A DNA stretch of 22,916 bases from an uncultured Actinotalea sp. (lineage in GTDB: Bacteria; Actinomycetota; Actinomycetes; Actinomycetales; Cellulomonadaceae), in the NCBI RefSeq assembly GCF_946885855.1, contig NZ_CAMPHH010000013.1:1-22916 (forward strand). The letters run 5' to 3'. Made by a program: the position numbers and the translations under genes. Positions 7,702 through 18,002 of this stretch are shown here, one piece after another (within the stretch, counting starts at the first letter, position 1; the number at the start of each line of letters is the position of its first letter). The notes below the pieces were generated by a model. The model ran no database searches, was not told where the DNA came from, and saw nothing but the letters and a program-made list of their open reading frames with translations.

Positions 7702-9303
7702 TCACGGCCGGGCGTCGACGCCCGCGCGCAGCAGTCCGAAGACGATCGAGTCGACGATGGCCTCCCACGAGGCCTCCACGATGTTCGGGCCTACGCCGAC
7801 CGTGCTCCACGTGGTCTCGGCGCCGGTGTCCATCGTCTCGACGAGCACACGCGTCGTGGCGTCGGTGCCGTGCTGCGTGTCCATGATCCGCACCTTGAAG
7901 TCGATGAGCTCGAACCGCTCGATCTCCGGGTAGCACGGCCGCAGCGCCTTGCGCAGCGCGTGGTCCAGGGCGTTGACCGGGCCGTTGCCCTCCCCCGTCG
8001 CGATGACGCGCTCGCCCCCGACGTGCACCTTGACGGTCGCCTCGCTCGTCGCGTCGGTCGGGTTGCCGGGGACCGTCTCGACGAACACCCGCCAGCTCTC
8101 CGTGCGGAAGAACGCCGGGCGCGCGCCGTCGAGCTCCTCGCGCAGCAGCAGCTCGAACGAGGCGTCCGCCGCGTCGTAGGTGTAGCCCTGCGCCTCGGCG
8201 TCCTTGACCCGGTTCGTCACCCGGGACAGCAGCTCGCCCTGCCCGGACAGGTCGAAGCCCAGCTCCCGACCCTTGAGCTCGATCGACGCCCGCCCGGCCA
8301 TGTCCGAGACGAGCATGCGCATGTCGTTGCCGACGGCCATCGGGTCCGCGTGCTGGTAGAGGTCGGGGTCGACCTTGATGGCGCTGGCGTGCAGGCCGGC
8401 CTTGTGCGCGAACGCGCTGGCGCCCACGTAGGGCTGGCGCGCGAACGGGGCGATGTTCGTCACCTCGCTGATCGCGTGGGCGATGCGGGTCATCTCCCGC
8501 AGCCCGGTGCCGGCGAGGAGGCGCTGCCCCTCCTTGAGCTCGAGGTTCGCGACGACGGTGAGCAGGTCGGCGTTGCCGGTCCGCTCGCCGTAGCCGTTGA
8601 CCGTGCCCTGCACGTGGGAGGCGCCGGAGGCGACGGCGGCCATGCTGTTCGCCACCGCGCAGCCGGAGTCGTTGTGGGCGTGGATGCCGAGCCGCCCGTC
8701 CACCCGCTCCCGCACGGCCCGGACGACCTCGTGGACGCGGTCCGGCAGCATCCCGCCGTTGGTGTCGCACAGCACCGCCACCTCGGCGCCGGCCGCGAAG
8801 GCCGCCTCGATGGCGCGCAGTGCGTAGTCCGGGTCGAAGCGGTACCCGTCGAAGAAGTGCTCCGCGTCGAGGAAGACCCGGCGCCCCTCCCCCACGAGGA
8901 ACGCCACCGTGTCGCCGATCATCGCGAGGTTCTCCTCGCCCGTGGTGCGCAGCGCCCGCTCCACGTGCCGGATGTCGCTCTTGGCGACCAGCGTGACGAC
9001 CGGGGCCTCGCTGTCGAGCAGCGCCCGCACCTGCGGGTCCTCCCAGGCGCGCGCGCCGGCCTTGCGCGTGGCGCCGAAGGCCGCGAGCTCGGCGTGGCGC
9101 AGGTCCAGCTCCTTCGCGGCCCGCTTGAAGAACTCCGTGTCCTTGGGGATGGCGCCGGGCCACCCTCCCTCGATGAAGCCGACGCCGAGCTCGTCCAGGA
9201 GCGGGGCGATCGTCAGCTTGTCCGCGACGGAGAGGTTCATCCCCTCCTGCTGGGCGCCGTCGCGCAGCGTCGTGTCGTAGACGTCGAAGGTCGTGGTGTC
9301 CAC
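7702..9303 (-). CDS. cimA: (R)-citramalate synthase
   Basis: Condenses pyruvate and acetyl-CoA to citramalate, the first step of the threonine-independent route to isoleucine. 533 residues: a DRE-TIM/HMGL-like barrel opens with DTTLRDGAQQEG (Arg14-Asp15) and continues with GVGFIEGGWPGA, HAHNDSGCAVANS and GYGERTGNADL. The C-terminal ~150 residues form the LeuA-type allosteric domain. FIEGGWPG and the overall length fit CimA (about 530 residues) better than LeuA or homocitrate synthase. The start is a GTG at 9303 with only a weak purine-rich ribosome site. The mRNA leader carries a short Ile-rich peptide, a terminator and further hairpins (9323-9538), so expression is probably controlled by attenuation. 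The gene lies downstream of leuB and ilvE on the same strand. Confidence 0.95.
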   Translation of the reverse strand: MDTTTFDVYDTTLRDGAQQEGMNLSVADKLTIAPLLDELGVGFIEGGWPGAIPKDTEFFKRAAKELDLRHAELAAFGATRKAGARAWEDPQVRALLDSEAPVVTLVAKSDIRHVERALRTTGEENLAMIGDTVAFLVGEGRRVFLDAEHFFDGYRFDPDYALRAIEAAFAAGAEVAVLCDTNGGMLPDRVHEVVRAVRERVDGRLGIHAHNDSGCAVANSMAAVASGASHVQGTVNGYGERTGNADLLTVVANLELKEGQRLLAGTGLREMTRIAHAISEVTNIAPFARQPYVGASAFAHKAGLHASAIKVDPDLYQHADPMAVGNDMRMLVSDMAGRASIELKGRELGFDLSGQGELLSRVTNRVKDAEAQGYTYDAADASFELLLREELDGARPAFFRTESWRVFVETVPGNPTDATSEATVKVHVGGERVIATGEGNGPVNALDHALRKALRPCYPEIERFELIDFKVRIMDTQHGTDATTRVLVETMDTGAETTWSTVGVGPNIVEASWEAIVDSIVFGLLRAGVDARP

Positions 9304-9322
9304 GTCGTGCTCTCTTCGTCCG

Positions 9323-9342
9323 GCCCCGTCGAGCGACGGGGC
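9323..9342 (-). promoter_or_regulatory. Hairpin just upstream of the cimA ribosome site
   Basis: GCCCCGTCG/CGACGGGGC forms a perfect 9-bp inverted repeat with only two unpaired bases (about 8 bp with a realistic loop). It ends 19 nt before the GTG of cimA and could affect translation initiation. Confidence 0.5.
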
Positions 9343-9421
9343 TGCGGGTACTGCCGGGACCTGCTGGGCCGTGCTGTGCCTGGGCCCCGCCGGCCGGGGG
9401 TGGTGCCGGCGTCCGGGCGAC

Positions 9422-9449
9422 GGTCCGGGCGGGGGGTGGTGCCCGGACC
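9422..9449 (-). promoter_or_regulatory. Second hairpin directly downstream of the cimA attenuator
   Basis: Perfect 9-bp inverted repeat GGTCCGGGC/GCCCGGACC with a 10-nt loop, beginning 3 nt after the T-run of the terminator. It is transcribed only if the terminator is read through. Confidence 0.5.
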
Positions 9450-9452
9450 AAC

Positions 9453-9481
9453 AAAAAGACCCCCCGGGGTACGGGAGGTCT
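9453..9481 (-). terminator. Intrinsic terminator (attenuator) in the cimA leader
   Basis: On the minus strand AGACCTCCCG (9481-9472), a 5-nt loop and CGGGGGGTCT (9466-9457) pair over 10 bp with one T-G wobble. The stem is followed directly by a T-run (TTTTTG, about 9457-9452). This U-tract terminator stands out in a window where other terminators lack one, and it lies between the leader peptide and cimA. Confidence 0.85.
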
Positions 9482-9509
9482 GCGCGTCCGGCGGGTCTGC
9501 CGAACGCGC
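9482..9509 (-). promoter_or_regulatory. Leader hairpin starting at the leader-peptide stop codon
   Basis: On the minus strand GCGCGTTCGGC (9509-9499) and GCCGGACGCGC (9492-9482) pair over 11 bp (one T-G wobble) with a 6-nt loop AGACCC. The first G is the last base of the leader TAG, so a ribosome at the stop codon would block this stem. It abuts the terminator stem with no gap. Confidence 0.7.
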
Positions 9510-9538
9510 TACTCGATAATGAGGGTGATCCAGGTCAC
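9509..9538 (-). CDS. cimA leader peptide (VTWITLIIE)
   Basis: A 9-codon ORF: GTG ACC TGG ATC ACC CTC ATT ATC GAG TAG. Three of nine residues are Ile and one is Leu, and two Ile codons (one the uncommon ATT) come just before the end. It is followed directly by a hairpin and then an intrinsic terminator ahead of cimA. This is the classic layout of ribosome-mediated attenuation: with scarce charged tRNA-Ile the ribosome stalls on the Ile codons and termination is relieved. The GTG has no Shine-Dalgarno but lies 6 nt after a CATGAT -10, so the transcript is probably leaderless. The peptide itself is expected to have no function of its own. Confidence 0.75.
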   Translation of the reverse strand: MTWITLIIE

Positions 9539-9544
9539 GGAGGC

Positions 9545-9550
9545 ATCATG
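9545..9550 (-). promoter_or_regulatory. Predicted -10 (CATGAT) of the cimA leader transcript
   Basis: CATGAT lies 6 nt before the leader GTG at 9538. It keeps the A at position 2 and T at position 6 of TANNNT. No good -35 is visible. Confidence 0.5.
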
Positions 9551-9769
9551 CCACAGCGTCCGGGGCGCGGACAGGGTGGTCGCATCGTGGGACGAGGGGC
9601 CCGGCAGCGCCGCCACCATGACGAGTCCGCCGGATCGCGTCGACTGCGCCGGGTCCTACCGGCGGGGTGGACGCGGTCCGGCGGAGTCGACGGGTGACGG
9701 GCGACAGGCGACGGCGGGTCGCCGCGCGCGCTGCGGCCGGGTGCGCGCCCGTCCAGGCAGCCCGACCCG
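9551..9769. other. Intergenic stretch between the cimA promoter and ilvE
   Basis: About 219 bp with no convincing gene. The only structure seen is a weak 6-bp hairpin at 9707-9723 (GGCGAC/GTCGCC) that could serve as the ilvE terminator. Confidence 0.4.
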
Positions 9770-10879
9770 TCAGACCAGGCGGCGCATCCAGCCGTGCGGG
9801 TCCTCGGCGCGGCCGTACTGGATGTCCGTCAGCCGGCTGCGGATGGCGGACGTGACACGACCCGTCTCGCCGTCGCCGACCGTGAGGTCGAAGTCGTCAC
9901 TGGCGAGGCGCCCGATCGGGGTCACGACGGCCGCGGTGCCGCACGCGAACATCTCCGTGATCGAACCGTCCTGCAGCCCCGCGCGGACCTCCTCCAGCGG
10001 CACCGGCCGCTCGACGACGTCGTGCCCGGCCTCCCCGAGCAGGGTGAGGATCGACGAGCGCGTGACGCCCTCGAGGATCGAGCCGTTGAGCTCGGGCGTG
10101 GTGACCGAGCCGTCGGAACGCACCACGAAGACGTTCATGCCGCCGAGCTCCTCGAGGAAGGACGCCGTCGGCGCGTCGAGGAAGCAGACCTGGTCGCAGC
10201 CCTGCGCCTGCGCCTGCTGCTGGGGCAGCAGGCTCGCGGCGTAGTTGCCGCCGCACTTGGCGGACCCGGTGCCGCCGGGACCGGCCCGGTGGTAGTCCCG
10301 CACGACCCAGATCGACACGGGCTTGAGGCCGCCGGAGAAGTACGGCCCGACCGGGGAGGCGATGAGGACGTACTCGGCCTGGCGCGTCGGACGCACGCCG
10401 AGGAACACCTCGGAGGCGTACATGAAGGGGCGCAGGTACAGGCTCGTCTCCTCGCCCGAGGGGACCCAGGCGCGGTCGGTGCGCACGAGTGCCTCGATGG
10501 AGCCGAGGAAGTCCTCGACCGGCAGCTCGGGCAGCGCGAGCCGCCGGGCGGACCGCGCGAACCGCTCCGCGTTGGCCTCCGGCCGGAACGTCCAGACCGA
10601 GCCGTCGACGTGGTGGTAGGCCTTCAGCCCCTCGAAGATCTCCTGCCCGTAGTGCAGCACGGCGGTCGCCGGGTCCAGCACGAGCGGGCCGTAGGCCTCG
10701 ACGCGGCGGTCCTGCCAGCCGCCGTCGGCGGTCCACGAGACCCGCGCCATGTGGTCGGAGAAGGCCGTCCCGAAGGTCGGGGAGGCCAGGACGGCCTCGC
10801 GCTCGGCCGTCGAGCGGGCGGTCGTGCTGGCGCGGACGTCGAAGCGGTCCGCGGTCGAAGCAGCAGCAGTGGTGCTCAT
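9770..10879 (-). CDS. ilvE: Branched-chain amino acid aminotransferase
   Basis: PLP-dependent fold-type IV transaminase that makes Ile, Leu and Val from their 2-keto acids with glutamate; cytoplasmic. 369 residues, the normal size for the longer (BCAT2-like) form. Landmarks are LHYGQEIFEGLKAY (75-88), LYLRPFMYASE (147-157), the Schiff-base lysine in GTGSAKCGGNYAASL (Lys208) and FLEELGGMNVFVV. The ATG at 10879 has AAAGGA 5 nt upstream. It follows leuB by 90 bp on the same strand, so the two may be cotranscribed, though a possible own promoter (TACCGT at 10920-10925) precedes it. No leader peptide like those of cimA and ilvB was seen here. Confidence 0.96.
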   Translation of the reverse strand: MSTTAAASTADRFDVRASTTARSTAEREAVLASPTFGTAFSDHMARVSWTADGGWQDRRVEAYGPLVLDPATAVLHYGQEIFEGLKAYHHVDGSVWTFRPEANAERFARSARRLALPELPVEDFLGSIEALVRTDRAWVPSGEETSLYLRPFMYASEVFLGVRPTRQAEYVLIASPVGPYFSGGLKPVSIWVVRDYHRAGPGGTGSAKCGGNYAASLLPQQQAQAQGCDQVCFLDAPTASFLEELGGMNVFVVRSDGSVTTPELNGSILEGVTRSSILTLLGEAGHDVVERPVPLEEVRAGLQDGSITEMFACGTAAVVTPIGRLASDDFDLTVGDGETGRVTSAIRSRLTDIQYGRAEDPHGWMRRLV

Positions 10880-10969: not shown

Positions 10970-12013
10970 CTACCCGCGCACGCGGCCCGCGAGGTCGGCG
11001 CCCACCTCGGCCGTCGACCGTACTCGGCCCCCGCGCTCGGCGAGGTCGGCCGCGACCGCGCGCTCCACGCGCGCCGCCTCCTCGTCGAGACCGAGGTGTG
11101 CGAGGAGCATGCTCACGGACAGCACCGTGGCGGTCGGGTCGGCCTTGCCCTGGCCGGCGATGTCCGGCGCGGAGCCGTGCACCGGCTCGAACATCGAGGG
11201 CGAGGTCCGGTCCGGGTTGATGTTCCCGGAGGCGGCGAGCCCGATGCCGCCGCAGATCGCGGCCGCCTGGTCCGTGATGATGTCGCCGAAGAGGTTGTCG
11301 GTGACGATGACGTCGAACCGCGACGGGTTCGTGGTCATGAAGATCGTGGCCGCGTCGACGTGCAGGTAGTCGGTGGTGACCTCGGGGAACTCCTCGTTGA
11401 CCCGCTCCACCGTGCGGCGCCACAGGTGACCGGCGTGCACGAGCACGTTGTGCTTGTGCACGAGCGTGAGGTGCCGGCGGGGCCGGGCCTGGGCCCGCGC
11501 GAACGCGTCCCGGACGACGCGCTCCACACCGAACGCCGTGTTGACGCTGACCTCGTTGGCGACCTCGTGCGGGGTGCCGACGCGGATCGCGCCGCCGTTG
11601 CCGACGTACGGTCCCTCGGTGCCCTCGCGCACGACGACGAAGTCGATCTCGCCCGGCTCGGCGAGCGGGGACCGCACCCCGGGGTACAGGCGACCCGGCC
11701 GCAGGTTGACGTAGTGGTCGAGCTCGAACCGCAGGCGCAGGAGCAGGCCCCGCTCGAGCACCCCCGAGGGCACACCCGGGTCGCCGATCGCGCCCAGCAG
11801 GATCGCGTCGTGGCGGCGGATCGTCGCGAGGTCCTCGTCGGTGAGCGTCTCGCCGGTCGCGTGCCAGCGGCGCGCGCCCAGGTCGAGCTCGGTCGTGGTG
11901 ACCTCGACATCACGGCCGGCGAGGGCCGCGTCCAGGACCGCCAGGCCTTGCTCGACGACCTCGGTCCCGATGCCGTCCCCGGCGACGACGGCGAGCTTCA
12001 CGGTGCGTGCCAT
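10970..12013 (-). CDS. leuB: 3-isopropylmalate dehydrogenase
   Basis: NAD-dependent oxidative decarboxylase of leucine synthesis, 347 residues. In the citramalate route it also converts erythro-3-methylmalate to 2-ketobutyrate, so it serves CimA. Landmarks are [10 protein letters not shown] near the N-terminus, [16 protein letters not shown] (the arginine-rich substrate segment), [10 protein letters not shown], the LVHKHNVL lysine strand, [13 protein letters not shown] and the NAD loop [20 protein letters not shown]. The length and the start match actinobacterial LeuB. ATG at 12013 follows a TAGGGT -10 by 8 nt with no ribosome site, suggesting a leaderless or near-leaderless transcript. ilvE lies downstream. 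Confidence 0.96.
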
Positions 12014-14028: not shown

Positions 14029-15214
<1,186 letters not shown>

Positions 15215-15236: not shown

Positions 15237-15761
15237 TCAGGCGCTGCGGGCGACGCGCTCGAGCGCGCGGTCCGTGATGGAGCGGGCACCCCGGCCGATC
15301 GCCACGGTCCCGGACTGCACGATCTCGCGGATGCCGTAGGGCTCGAGGGCCGCGAGCAGCGCGTCGAGCTTCCCGGGGCTGCCGGTCGCCTCGACGACGA
15401 CGGCCTCGGGGACCACGTCGACGACGTGCGCCCGGAACAGCTGGACGACCTCGAGCACGTGGGTCCGGGTGGCCGCGTCGGCGCGCACCTTGACCAGCAG
15501 CAGCTCACGCTGCACGGACGCCTCCGGCTCAAGCTCGACGATCTTGATGACGTTGATGAGCTTGTTGAGCTGCTTGGTCACCTGCTCCAGCGGGAGCTCG
15601 TCGACGTCGACGACGACGGTGATGCGCGAGATCTCCTCGTGCTCCGTCGGGCCCACCGCGAGGGAGTGGATGTTGAACGACCTGCGGGCGAACAGGCCGG
15701 CGACCCGCGTGAGCACGCCTGGCTTGTTCTCGACGAGGACGGAGAGCGTGTGCCTGCTCAT
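15237..15761 (-). CDS. ilvN: Acetolactate synthase small (regulatory) subunit
   Basis: Regulatory subunit that activates IlvB and confers feedback inhibition by valine and other branched-chain amino acids. 174 residues. The ACT domain (about 4-80) starts HTLSVLVENKPGVLTRVAGLFARRSFNIHSL-like and carries the effector-site segment; the C-terminal half (about 85-165) is the ALS_ss_C domain. The ATG at 15761 overlaps the TGA of a 40-codon ORF that fills the gap after ilvB (ATGA). Its ribosome site (GAAGAAGG) lies inside that ORF. ilvC follows on the same transcript. Confidence 0.96.
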   Translation of the reverse strand: MSRHTLSVLVENKPGVLTRVAGLFARRSFNIHSLAVGPTEHEEISRITVVVDVDELPLEQVTKQLNKLINVIKIVELEPEASVQRELLLVKVRADAATRTHVLEVVQLFRAHVVDVVPEAVVVEATGSPGKLDALLAALEPYGIREIVQSGTVAIGRGARSITDRALERVARSA

Positions 15762-15882: not shown

Positions 15883-17793
15883 TCACTCCTCCCGGTCCCA
15901 GGCAGGGCTGATGCCCCGCGCGTACTGGATCTCGTCGTTGCTCACGCCGGCGGCGACCATGGGCCACACCATGGCGTCGCGCGAGACGGTGAAGTCCACG
16001 ACGACCGGCTGGTCGTCGATCTCCATCGCGCGCTTGATGGTCGCGTCCACGTCGGCCGGGCTCTCGCAGCGCAGGCCGACGCATCCGTAGGCGTCGGCGA
16101 GCTTGACGAAGTCGGGGATGCGCGCGGTCCCGTGGCCCGTGTGCAGGTCGGTGTTGGAGTAGCGGGACTCGTAGAAGAGCGTCTGCCACTGCCGGACCAT
16201 GCCGAGCGAGGAGTTGTTGACGACCGCCACCTTGATCGGGATCTCGTTGATCGCGCAGGTGGCGAGCTCCTGGTTGGTCATCTGGAAGCAGCCGTCGCCG
16301 TCGATGGCCCACACGGTGCGGTCCGGGTCGCCGACCTTCGCGCCCATCGCCGCCGGCACCGCGTAGCCCATCGTCCCGAGACCCCCGGAGTTCAGCCACG
16401 AGCTCGGCCGCTCGTAGCGGATGAACTGCGCGGCCCACATCTGGTGCTGGCCCACGCCGGCGACGTAGATCGCCTCCGGTCCCGCGATCTCGCCGAGGCG
16501 CTGGATGACGCGCTGCGGCGCGAGGTGACCGTCGTCGGGGTCGGTGTAGCCCAGGGGGAAGGTCTCGCGCCAGTCGTCGATCTGCCGCCACCACCCCTCG
16601 AGGTCCGGCTTGCCGTGCTGCGCGTGCTCGCGGCTCAGCTCGGGCAGCAGGTCGGCGATGACCTCGCGCAGGTCGCCGACGATCGGCACATCCGCCCGCC
16701 GGTTCTTGCCGATCTCGGCGGGGTCGATGTCCGCGTGCACGACCGTGGCGTGCGGCGCGAAGGAGGCCAGCTTGCCGGTCACGCGGTCGTCGAAGCGTGC
16801 CCCGAGGGCCACGACGAGGTCGGCCTTCTGCAGCGCCGCCACCGCGGGGACGGTGCCGTGCATGCCCGGCATGCCGAGGTGCTGCGGGTGCGAGTCGGGC
16901 AGCGCCCCGCGCGCCATGAGGGTCGTGACCGCCGGGGCACCCGAGAGGTCGACGAGGCGCCGCAGCTCCGCGCTCGCCCCCGAGCGGATGGCGCCGCCAC
17001 CGATGTAGAGGACAGGTCGCCGCGCGGTCGCCAGGAGCCGTGCCGCCTCGCGGATCTGCTTCGCGTGCGGCTTGGTCACCGGGTGGTAGCCGGGCAGCTC
17101 GAGCGACTGCGGCCAGGAGAACGTCGTCTGGGTCTGCATCGCCGACTTGGCGATGTCGACGAGGACCGGCCCCGGACGGCCCGTGCTGGCGATGTGGAAG
17201 GCCTGCGCGATGACCTTGGGGATCTCGTCCGGGTTCGTGACGAGGAAGTTGTGCTTGGTGATCGGCAGGGTGATGCCGACGATGTCGGCCTCCTGGAACG
17301 CGTCCGTGCCGATCATCGAGGCGCCCACCTGGCCGGTGATGGCCACGAGCGGCACGGAGTCCATGTTGGCGTCCGCGATCGGGGTGACGAGGTTCGTCGC
17401 CCCCGGTCCCGACGTCGCCATGCAGACGCCCACCCGGCCGGTCGCGTAGGCGTAGCCCGAGGCGGCGTGCCCGGCCCCCTGCTCGTGCCGCACCAGGATG
17501 TGGCGCAGCGCGCTGGAGTCCATGAGCGGGTCGTACGTCGGGAGGATCGCGCCACCCGGGATGCCGAACACGACCTCCGTGCCGGCCGCCTCGAGCGAAC
17601 GGACGATCGACTCGGCGCCCGACATGGGCGTGCCCGAGGCGACGACGGGCGCCGGCCCGCCGCTCGGGCCAGGACGGCTGCCGGCGACGGCGGGCCGTAC
17701 GTCCGCGGGCGTGACGGCCGGCTGCGGCCGGGCGGTCTCGGCGGCCGGACGGCCGCTCCCCGTGGGCGGGGCCTGGTGGGTGCCCTGTGCCAT
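15883..17793 (-). CDS. ilvB: Acetolactate synthase large (catalytic) subunit
   Basis: ThDP/FAD enzyme that makes 2-acetolactate from two pyruvates, or acetohydroxybutyrate from pyruvate plus 2-ketobutyrate. 636 residues. An N-terminal Pro/Ala-rich extension (1-56) precedes the catalytic core. The ThDP-activating glutamate is Glu104 in [14 protein letters not shown], and the ThDP/Mg motif runs from GDG (499-501) to NN (526-527). [13 protein letters not shown] and GMHGT segments are also typical. The ATG at 17793 follows GGGAGAG with a 4-nt spacer. It opens the ilvBNC operon, which has a leader peptide and attenuator upstream (17860-17966). Confidence 0.97.
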
Positions 17794-17859: not shown

Positions 17860-17896
17860 AAAAAGCCCCTCCGCCCGTCTGGTGGGCTGCGAGGGG
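17860..17896 (-). terminator. Intrinsic terminator (attenuator) in the ilvB leader
   Basis: On the minus strand CCCCTC (17896 down) pairs with GAGGGG (17871-17866), and an inner GCCC/GGGC adds four more pairs with a small internal loop. A CTTTTT tract follows (17865-17860). It sits between the leader peptide and ilvB, 66 nt before the ilvB start. Confidence 0.82.
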
Positions 17897-17936
17897 TCGG
17901 CGCGCGGACGAAGCCTGGCTGGCGGTCGGCCGGCGC

Positions 17937-17966
17937 CTAGGCGAGTACTACGAGGATCGTCTGCAC
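17937..17966 (-). CDS. ilvB leader peptide (VQTILVVLA)
   Basis: A 9-codon ORF: GTG CAG ACG ATC CTC GTA GTA CTC GCC TAG. Residues 4-8 are Ile-Leu-Val-Val-Leu, the three end products of the pathway, and both internal Val codons are GTA, a rare codon in such high-GC genomes. A terminator follows within 41 nt. Leader-peptide attenuation of ilvB operons is known in actinobacteria. The GTG lies 7 nt after a TAGGCT -10 with no ribosome site, so the message is probably leaderless. Rare GTA codons should make stalling more sensitive to valine supply. Confidence 0.85.
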
Positions 17967-17973
17967 GAACCGC

Positions 17974-18002
17974 AGCCTACGCCCGCGTCGGTGCGCTGTC
18001 AC
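17974..18002 (-). promoter_or_regulatory. Promoter of the ilvBNC operon
   Basis: On the minus strand GTGACA (-35, 18002-17997), a 17-nt spacer and TAGGCT (-10, 17979-17974). The leader GTG follows the -10 by 7 nt. This is the best sigma-70-type promoter in the window. Confidence 0.75.

Follow-up and report, generated by a model that had tools for sequence, protein, structure and literature searches.

The leuB, ilvE and cimA genes follow one another on the minus strand of the 22,916-nucleotide stretch analysed here (the window), and the gap between ilvE and cimA raises the question of whether cimA carries an isoleucine-dependent control of its own. The row opens with leuB (10970..12013; NF002898, 599.4 bits against a cut-off of 393), continues with ilvE (9770..10879; NF009897, 487.5 bits, cut-off 307) and ends with cimA (7702..9303; TIGR00977, 616.8 bits, cut-off 450), which encodes citramalate synthase, the enzyme at the head of one route to isoleucine, is the gene proposed as regulated and was given the GTG at 9303 as our choice of start. 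The initial annotation had placed in this gap a CATGAT -10 element, an open reading frame (ORF) encoding VTWITLIIE 6 nt further on, an 11-bp hairpin beginning on the last base of the stop codon and a 10-bp terminator with a T-run, and all of these were present. Read on the minus strand, the element (9553-9453) runs TGTGG-CATGAT-gcctcc-GTG ACC TGG ATC ACC CTC ATT ATC GAG TAG, followed by a first hairpin (H1), the terminator (T) and TTTTGTTG. The extended -10, TGG-CATGAT, occupies 9545..9553 (CATGAT at 9550-9545), and the leader ORF VTWITLIIE* (9509..9538) is predicted to be leaderless, with transcription predicted to start at or adjoining its GTG at 9538; both features were read directly from the sequence.

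The two hairpins were identified by folding and covariation, and T in addition by a terminator scan. H1 (9482..9509, minus strand) has 11 bp, a loop AGACCC and a lower stem GCGCG/CGCGC, and its first base is the G of the leader TAG. It is abutted by T (9453..9481, minus strand), an intrinsic terminator with a 10-bp stem (9481-9457), a loop TACCC and a T-run of TTTT at 9456-9453 followed by GTTG. The 90-nt leader folded at -45.1 kcal/mol (z -4.84), and 0 of 200 shuffles were equally stable. Between 8500 and 10500, the only terminator-like sites were three overlapping ones at the leader (shuffled mean 0.1), and a strict sigma-70 pattern scan demanding both hexamers returned no promoter in that interval. 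No Rfam family, leader peptides and riboswitches included, reached its threshold over the window; the best sub-threshold match in 9300-9770 reached 23.8 bits, where the gathering score is 58.8. Identity of the cimA leader with an Rfam family was therefore rejected, and genome annotation that relies on Rfam misses this leader because the element is absent from that database.

We then examined the best 80 cimA loci from public genomes, picked by CimA protein similarity alone, with a covariance model (R1) built from 28 sequences. The element lay directly upstream of cimA in 49 of the 80 loci, among them records of Cellulomonas, Cellulosimicrobium, Isoptericola, Demequina, Pedococcus, Nocardioides, Streptomyces, Nonomuraea, Planotetraspora, Acrocarpospora, Streptomonospora, Micromonospora, Motilibacter, Nakamurella, Kutzneria, Pseudonocardia and Amycolatopsis; the closest relative among the matches listed was Cellulomonas carbonis (CimA identity 90%). 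The model found no element directly upstream in the other 31 of these 80 loci, among them Brachybacterium, Propionibacteriaceae, one Nakamurella, several actinobacterial metagenome-assembled genomes, Acidimicrobiaceae and a few non-actinobacterial records. A looser search of the 31, for short ORFs with paired isoleucines and a -10 within 600 nt, gave candidates in three (L041, L067 and L071). In the loci listed, T starts 50 to 318 nt ahead of the CimA match, and its place relative to the start codon varies.

Among 394 genomes drawn evenly from the class, 250 matched the model at E <=0.001 and 310 had cimA. A match was present somewhere in 237 of the 310 genomes with cimA versus 13 of the 84 without it; at E 0.001 the cimA elements number at most 237, as some of these matches are the ilvB sister element described below. 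For 25 of the 30 best cimA hits in this class search, the element lay beside cimA by position. A further 76 places, chosen from the model's own better hits, comprised 74 before cimA and two before ilvB. Three matches about 2 kb before cimA (L068, L073 and L079) and two before ilvB (L194 and L205) were left out of the cimA elements. Counts from the 124 cimA elements matched by R1 lean towards isoleucine, since the model includes the isoleucine columns.

We also assessed the coding signal in a model-free manner. Pattern matching located both T and an H1 opening with GCGC in 49 of the 81 regions examined upstream (the 80 loci and the window). At these 49 loci, the last five codons of the upstream ORF (uORF) frame, which leads into the TAG, held a mean of 2.04 isoleucines, compared with 0.02 and 0.10 in the other frames. 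At least two isoleucines in one frame occurred at 44 of the 49 loci and in 0.16% of control windows. The remaining five (L003, L029, L032, L033 and L035) had fewer than two in every frame, and this test had anchored L029, L032 and L035 on another GCGCG than the model hits. Across the 124 cimA elements, the two positions of the isoleucine pair, codons A and B, encoded isoleucine in 115 and 98 cases, respectively. The leader and its isoleucine codons, whose loss in close relatives the initial annotation had named as grounds for refutation, were thus kept.

The choice of isoleucine codon was likewise distinctive. The 123 leaders contained 150 ATT, 134 ATC and no ATA codons, the third base exchanging T and C with the amino acid kept, and nine of the uORFs had a single isoleucine. 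At the 49 element-bearing loci among L001-L080, ATT made up 53 of 80 leader isoleucine codons versus 29 of 789 in the cimA bodies (p 4e-43 for ATT versus ATC, with loci that are not independent). ATT had been called uncommon in the initial annotation, and cimA, ilvE, leuB and ilvB of the window use ATC for all 78 of their isoleucines. Use of this rare codon might make the response sharper, or might leave the RNA before H1 unpaired. We also observed that some cimA leaders carry a single isoleucine followed by one or two threonines (L178, L180 with MTSCITT, L187, L188 and L191), a pattern that might let the leader sense threonine, isoleucine's other precursor, as well.

To relate the ORF to its promoter, start codons were chosen by position and without consulting the promoter; the start of L114 fell beyond the range of the rule, which left 123 leaders. 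A -10-like nAnnnT stood at a spacing of 6 or 7 nt from the start in 91 of the 123 and only at 8 or 9 nt in 11, while no such match occurred at spacings 4-9 in 21. Upstream, T at -15 and G at -14 were found in 49% and 79% of the 124 cimA elements. An nAnnnT 6-7 nt before the start is the signature of a leaderless ORF, and the leaderless form is predicted on this basis. The initial annotation had regarded a leaderless start as unusual for an attenuator. Such starts have proved ordinary in actinobacteria: according to the accessible text of an RNA-seq study of Streptomyces lividans, seven of eight leaders are leaderless and cimA is not among the eight (PMC8079986), and the Corynebacterium glutamicum ilvBNC transcript starts one nucleotide from its uORF (PMC11857589, excerpt).

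Structure was evaluated in an alignment of 28 relatives (A1), picked for short H1 loops and anchored on GCGCG, with L048 dropped as mis-anchored. Changes on both sides were present in 12 of 21 base pairs (6 of 11 in H1 and 6 of 10 in T), a count reached by 0 of 500 shuffles. Paired cells amounted to 94%, falling to 40-53% when partners were slid by 1-3 columns; by the weakest covariation measure, further pair types, 11 of 500 shuffles reached the value of A1. The lower five H1 pairs were invariant, but the choice of anchor accounts in part for the constancy of GCGCG in A1. In an anchor-free count at 49 loci, with H1 located from pairing only, GCGCG opened the hairpin in 47. H1 loops varied widely in length and sequence among relatives.

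The geometry of the parts was also constrained. H1 and T were joined without a linker in 92 of the 124 elements when a wide range of linkers was allowed, and in 99 of 124 over a narrow range. H1 began on the last base of the stop codon in 71 of the 124, the stop lay downstream of the H1 start in 49 others, and the ORF ended just before H1 in four. In 119 of 123 leaders, the last isoleucine codon began 8 nt (95) or 11 nt (24) ahead of H1. Comparison of relatives has in this way established the spacing of promoter and start, the isoleucine codons, both hairpins and the fixed arrangement of these parts.

On these grounds, we are fairly confident that the cimA leader is a ribosome-mediated transcription attenuator sensing isoleucyl-tRNA. 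As in attenuators of the ilvB and leuS type, codons for the end product, here isoleucine, are in frame near the predicted 5′ end, H1 overlaps the end of the ORF in most elements and, by sequence and structure, a predicted intrinsic terminator stands upstream of cimA. The core proposal of the initial annotation, an isoleucine-coded, predicted leaderless leader with a terminator before cimA, gained support from conservation, covariation and the in-frame isoleucine codons, and isoleucine-responsive attenuation at cimA is likely. Against attenuation we counted the single-isoleucine leaders (9/123), the lineages in which threonine follows a lone isoleucine, the leaders with no -10 (21/123), the 31 of 80 loci with no element directly upstream and the lack of an antiterminator. 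We infer translation of the ORF, a response to isoleucine and antitermination on stalling from the homologous ilvB leaders.

Under this reading, transcription would start at the leader GTG and a 70S ribosome would begin on the very 5′ end. When isoleucine is available, the ribosome would pass ATT-ATC, end at TAG and leave; H1 and T would then form, and RNA polymerase would stop after about 85-90 nt. When isoleucine is short, stalling on the isoleucine codons would bring the front edge of the ribosome onto GCGCG in the 5′ arm of H1, termination would fail and cimA would be transcribed. If a ribosome reaches 12 nt beyond the first base of its A site, one stalled with the last isoleucine codon in that site would hide exactly GCGCG in the 8-nt class (95/123) and only its first two bases in the 11-nt class.

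How stalling would act on T was addressed by a search for competing structures. In equilibrium folding with ViennaRNA, the mean probability of T was 0.974-0.995 over seven exposed stretches of the 124 elements. A thermodynamic antiterminator was therefore rejected as a general switch, with T winning for nearly every ribosome position modelled. In the window, the probability of T drops to 0.25 when exposure of the RNA starts at the end of the H1 5′ arm, and the competitor seen by eye is AGACCCGCCGG, which pairs with the 3′ arm of T. As a general switch, this type of competitor was also rejected, because T fell below 0.5 in only 3 of the 124 elements for that exposed stretch. Seven pairings of the H1 loop or arms with the T arms, in 105 to 124 elements each, gave none clearly above shuffles (mean z -0.12 to 0.50).

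The H1 loop region was mildly enriched in motifs able to pair with the T 3′ arm, namely ACC (79 of 124 elements versus 58.5 expected), ACCC (44 versus 28.4) and GACC (35 versus 20.1). The initial annotation had suggested the AGACC shared by the first loop and the terminator as a possible competitor. This motif is present in H1 loop and T of the window, in the geometry of the putative Corynebacterium ilvB antiterminator, which in the available part of its description consists of the P1 loop and the right side of the terminator (PMC10272879). As an antiterminator it is not conserved: AGACC occurred in 11 of the 124 elements, counted over the H1 loop region, versus 3.3 expected from shuffles, and L001, L002 and L012 lacked it. 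Because the elements are not independent, the motif enrichment is weak support for the AGACC idea and not proof against it. ViennaRNA folding and complementarity searches over the 124 elements revealed no conserved antiterminator competing with T, and we therefore do not file the element as a classical three-structure attenuator.

One way in which stalling could work with no competing antiterminator is that H1 is a helper of T, so that a stalled ribosome takes away a hairpin on which T depends for stacking or pausing. This idea draws on the abutting of H1 and T (92/124), the near-invariant GCGCG (47/49) and the geometry of the 8-nt class (95/123), and the 11-nt class (24/123) speaks against it; we put it forward tentatively, as a possibility less probable than not by a good distance. 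If it is true, actinobacterial branched-chain leaders would as a rule be two-hairpin attenuators lacking an antiterminator.

The proposed attenuator at cimA can be compared with sister elements elsewhere. In the window, a hairpin with a T-run precedes ilvB on the minus strand (17860..17979), with a -10 TAGGCT at 17979-17974, an ORF VQTILVVLA at 17966-17937 and a terminator at about 17896-17865. The ORF starts with GTG and mixes isoleucine, leucine and valine codons, the fold was moderately better than shuffles (z -1.75; 12 of 200 equally stable), and at E 0.01 the leader gave no match to the cimA model. Downstream lie ilvB (15883-17793, by profile search), ilvN (15237-15761) and ilvC (14114-15142). 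From its sequence, 17860-17979 is probably a second leaderless attenuator in the window.

Beyond the window, the cimA model gave 18 weaker places away from cimA in 26 genomes. Sixteen of the 18 were fetched, of which eight lay before ilvB (by tblastn), three before leuS, one before a small ORF and four without a recognised gene; these last four may be chance. The eight ilvB leaders read ILVLT, LVVP, LLVIT, LLVLVQRAG, LLVII, ILVLGKRVG, LVVILRAG and ILVLGRRAAS, and two of the leuS leaders read LLLT and LLLGQPR, the third leuS place giving no ORF by our rule. All eight ilvB leaders, like that of the window, had a candidate start 6-7 nt after a -10. Close model matches before ilvB, with Val-Val-Pro or Val-Ile-Pro, also occurred in two genomes without a cimA match (L194 and L205). 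The Streptomyces indicus ilvB leader (L122, MRTRILVLGKRVG) has the same sequence as IlvL of S. lividans, which RNA-seq showed to be leaderless (PMC8079986, in part). With isoleucine before cimA, mixed codons before ilvB and leucine before leuS, these data point to one skeleton serving several genes, in which the codons follow the gene.

Two further groups of elements were observed. In Streptomyces indicus (L123 382-786), the element recurs as a strong match (E 3.8e-13, leader MLRQLIIGCGVPAPR) ahead of an 82-aa ORF at 538-786, which by eye has the look of an IlvM-kind acetolactate synthase small subunit and gave no Pfam or NCBIfam match. Related elements stand ahead of leuB, about 2 kb before cimA, at L068 366-436, L073 388-459 and L079 436-508, with leader ends AVVVAIG, QVIVIV and TVIMD, respectively. 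Their sequences suggest attenuation at the head of the leuB-to-cimA row in those other lineages.

The mixed codons before ilvB bear on a broader specificity, in which the cimA leader would sense branched-chain amino acids generally and the leucine and valine codons beside isoleucine would count too. The codon before the isoleucine pair is leucine in 29 and valine in 12 of the 124 elements, and the window leader itself reads L-I-I. Isoleucine is nonetheless more frequent than any other residue at each of the three positions (58, 115 and 98 of 124), and it is the ilvB leaders of the same architecture that have mixed codons, so we consider general sensing improbable. Similarly slim, in our estimate, is the chance that the uORF acts through Rho, RNA decay or cimA translation, with the intrinsic terminator constitutive. 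That account would fit a T that is stable at equilibrium for nearly every modelled ribosome position and the lack of a conserved competing fold; it fits less well with the abutting of H1 and T in 92 of 124 elements, with a T that holds no fixed place by the start codon and with the related ilvB leaders, which work through such a terminator (PMC11857589 and PMC13236596, both in excerpt).

Given that cimA follows leuB and ilvE on one strand and that T lies between ilvE and cimA, T could be a mere terminator of leuB-ilvE, with a plain downstream promoter for cimA and an incidental ORF. We think this very unlikely, as it gives no role to the frame-specific isoleucine codons at a fixed distance from H1, to the covarying H1 or to the ORF-phased -10. 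Within the attenuator reading, T would also cut leuB-ilvE read-through and so separate cimA, and read-through transcripts would carry the leader ORF with no obvious ribosome-binding site. That the ORF is fortuitous and the leader is a riboswitch for a metabolite or a binding site for a protein, to which a GCGCG more constant (47/49) than pairing alone needs might point, is highly improbable in view of the missing Rfam threshold match, the variable H1 loops and the strong coding signal.

If isoleucine-dependent attenuation at cimA is true, the citramalate route to isoleucine would have its own isoleucine-specific control, widespread in actinomycetes and sitting beside the mixed-codon control of ilvB in one genome. 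The cimA, ilvB and leuS leaders, with the same skeleton and different codons, would amount to a natural codon-swap experiment, and the sister leaders pose the question of how termination is avoided with no visible antiterminator. The initial annotation knew of no attenuator for cimA, and none was found in the open-licence papers searched; a description elsewhere is possible. In the accessible text of a 2005 comparative study, actinobacterial elements are given for trp, cys, ilvB, leuA, leuS, trpS and ileS, and cimA is not named (PMC1262725).

Functional data on related leaders come from several species. As cited in the available part of PMC11857589, replacement of the leader valines of C. glutamicum ilvBNC led to loss of valine-dependent expression. 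In the excerpted account of the Mycobacterium tuberculosis ilvB1 leader, changing LVVI to AAAA abolished induction, and the terminated RNA was about 120 nt long (PMC13236596). Codon mutations in S. coelicolor ilvB were without effect, which counts against the attenuator reading (cited in PMC1262725, in part).

Classical enterobacterial trp, ilv and leu attenuators combine a coded leader, a first hairpin and a terminator with a clear antiterminator that overlaps the terminator, and have Shine-Dalgarno sites. The cimA element resembles them in its coded leader, first hairpin and terminator, and differs in that no antiterminator was seen and its start is predicted to be leaderless. For leuA, the LEU element has been described as forming a pseudoknot and the leader as having no typical terminator (PMC1262725 and PMC8079986, as far as their accessible text goes), in contrast to the intrinsic terminator of the cimA element. 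The regulator proposed for LEU is a DEAD-box protein of the ML1624 kind (PMC1262725, same portion); the window encodes a DUF3516 helicase-type protein at 20-2302 on the plus strand.

The closest parallels are actinobacterial. Like Streptomyces leuS, where leuL2 is a leaderless uORF with three leucine codons followed by a hairpin and a U stretch (PMC8079986, excerpt), the cimA element joins a coded, predicted leaderless uORF to hairpins, the leuS leader differing in its leucine codons and its tRNA ligase gene. With Corynebacterium ilvB-II, S. lividans ilvL and M. tuberculosis ilvB1 it shares a uORF with branched-chain codons and a biosynthetic gene downstream (PMC10272879, PMC8079986 and PMC13236596, each in part), and with ilvB-II also a pair of hairpins, there called P1 and P2 and corresponding to H1 and T, and a U-run (PMC10272879, in part). 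The loop-to-T antiterminator proposed for Corynebacterium ilvB was not supported in the cimA set, although the AGACCC loop of the window could form one. Judged by sequence and structure, the cimA element very probably belongs to the actinobacterial attenuators with a leaderless uORF, a known kind, as an isoleucine-specific member that is widespread and, as far as searched, new; it departs from the actinobacterial ilvB leaders in having cimA downstream, codons narrowed to isoleucine and a T that usually abuts H1.
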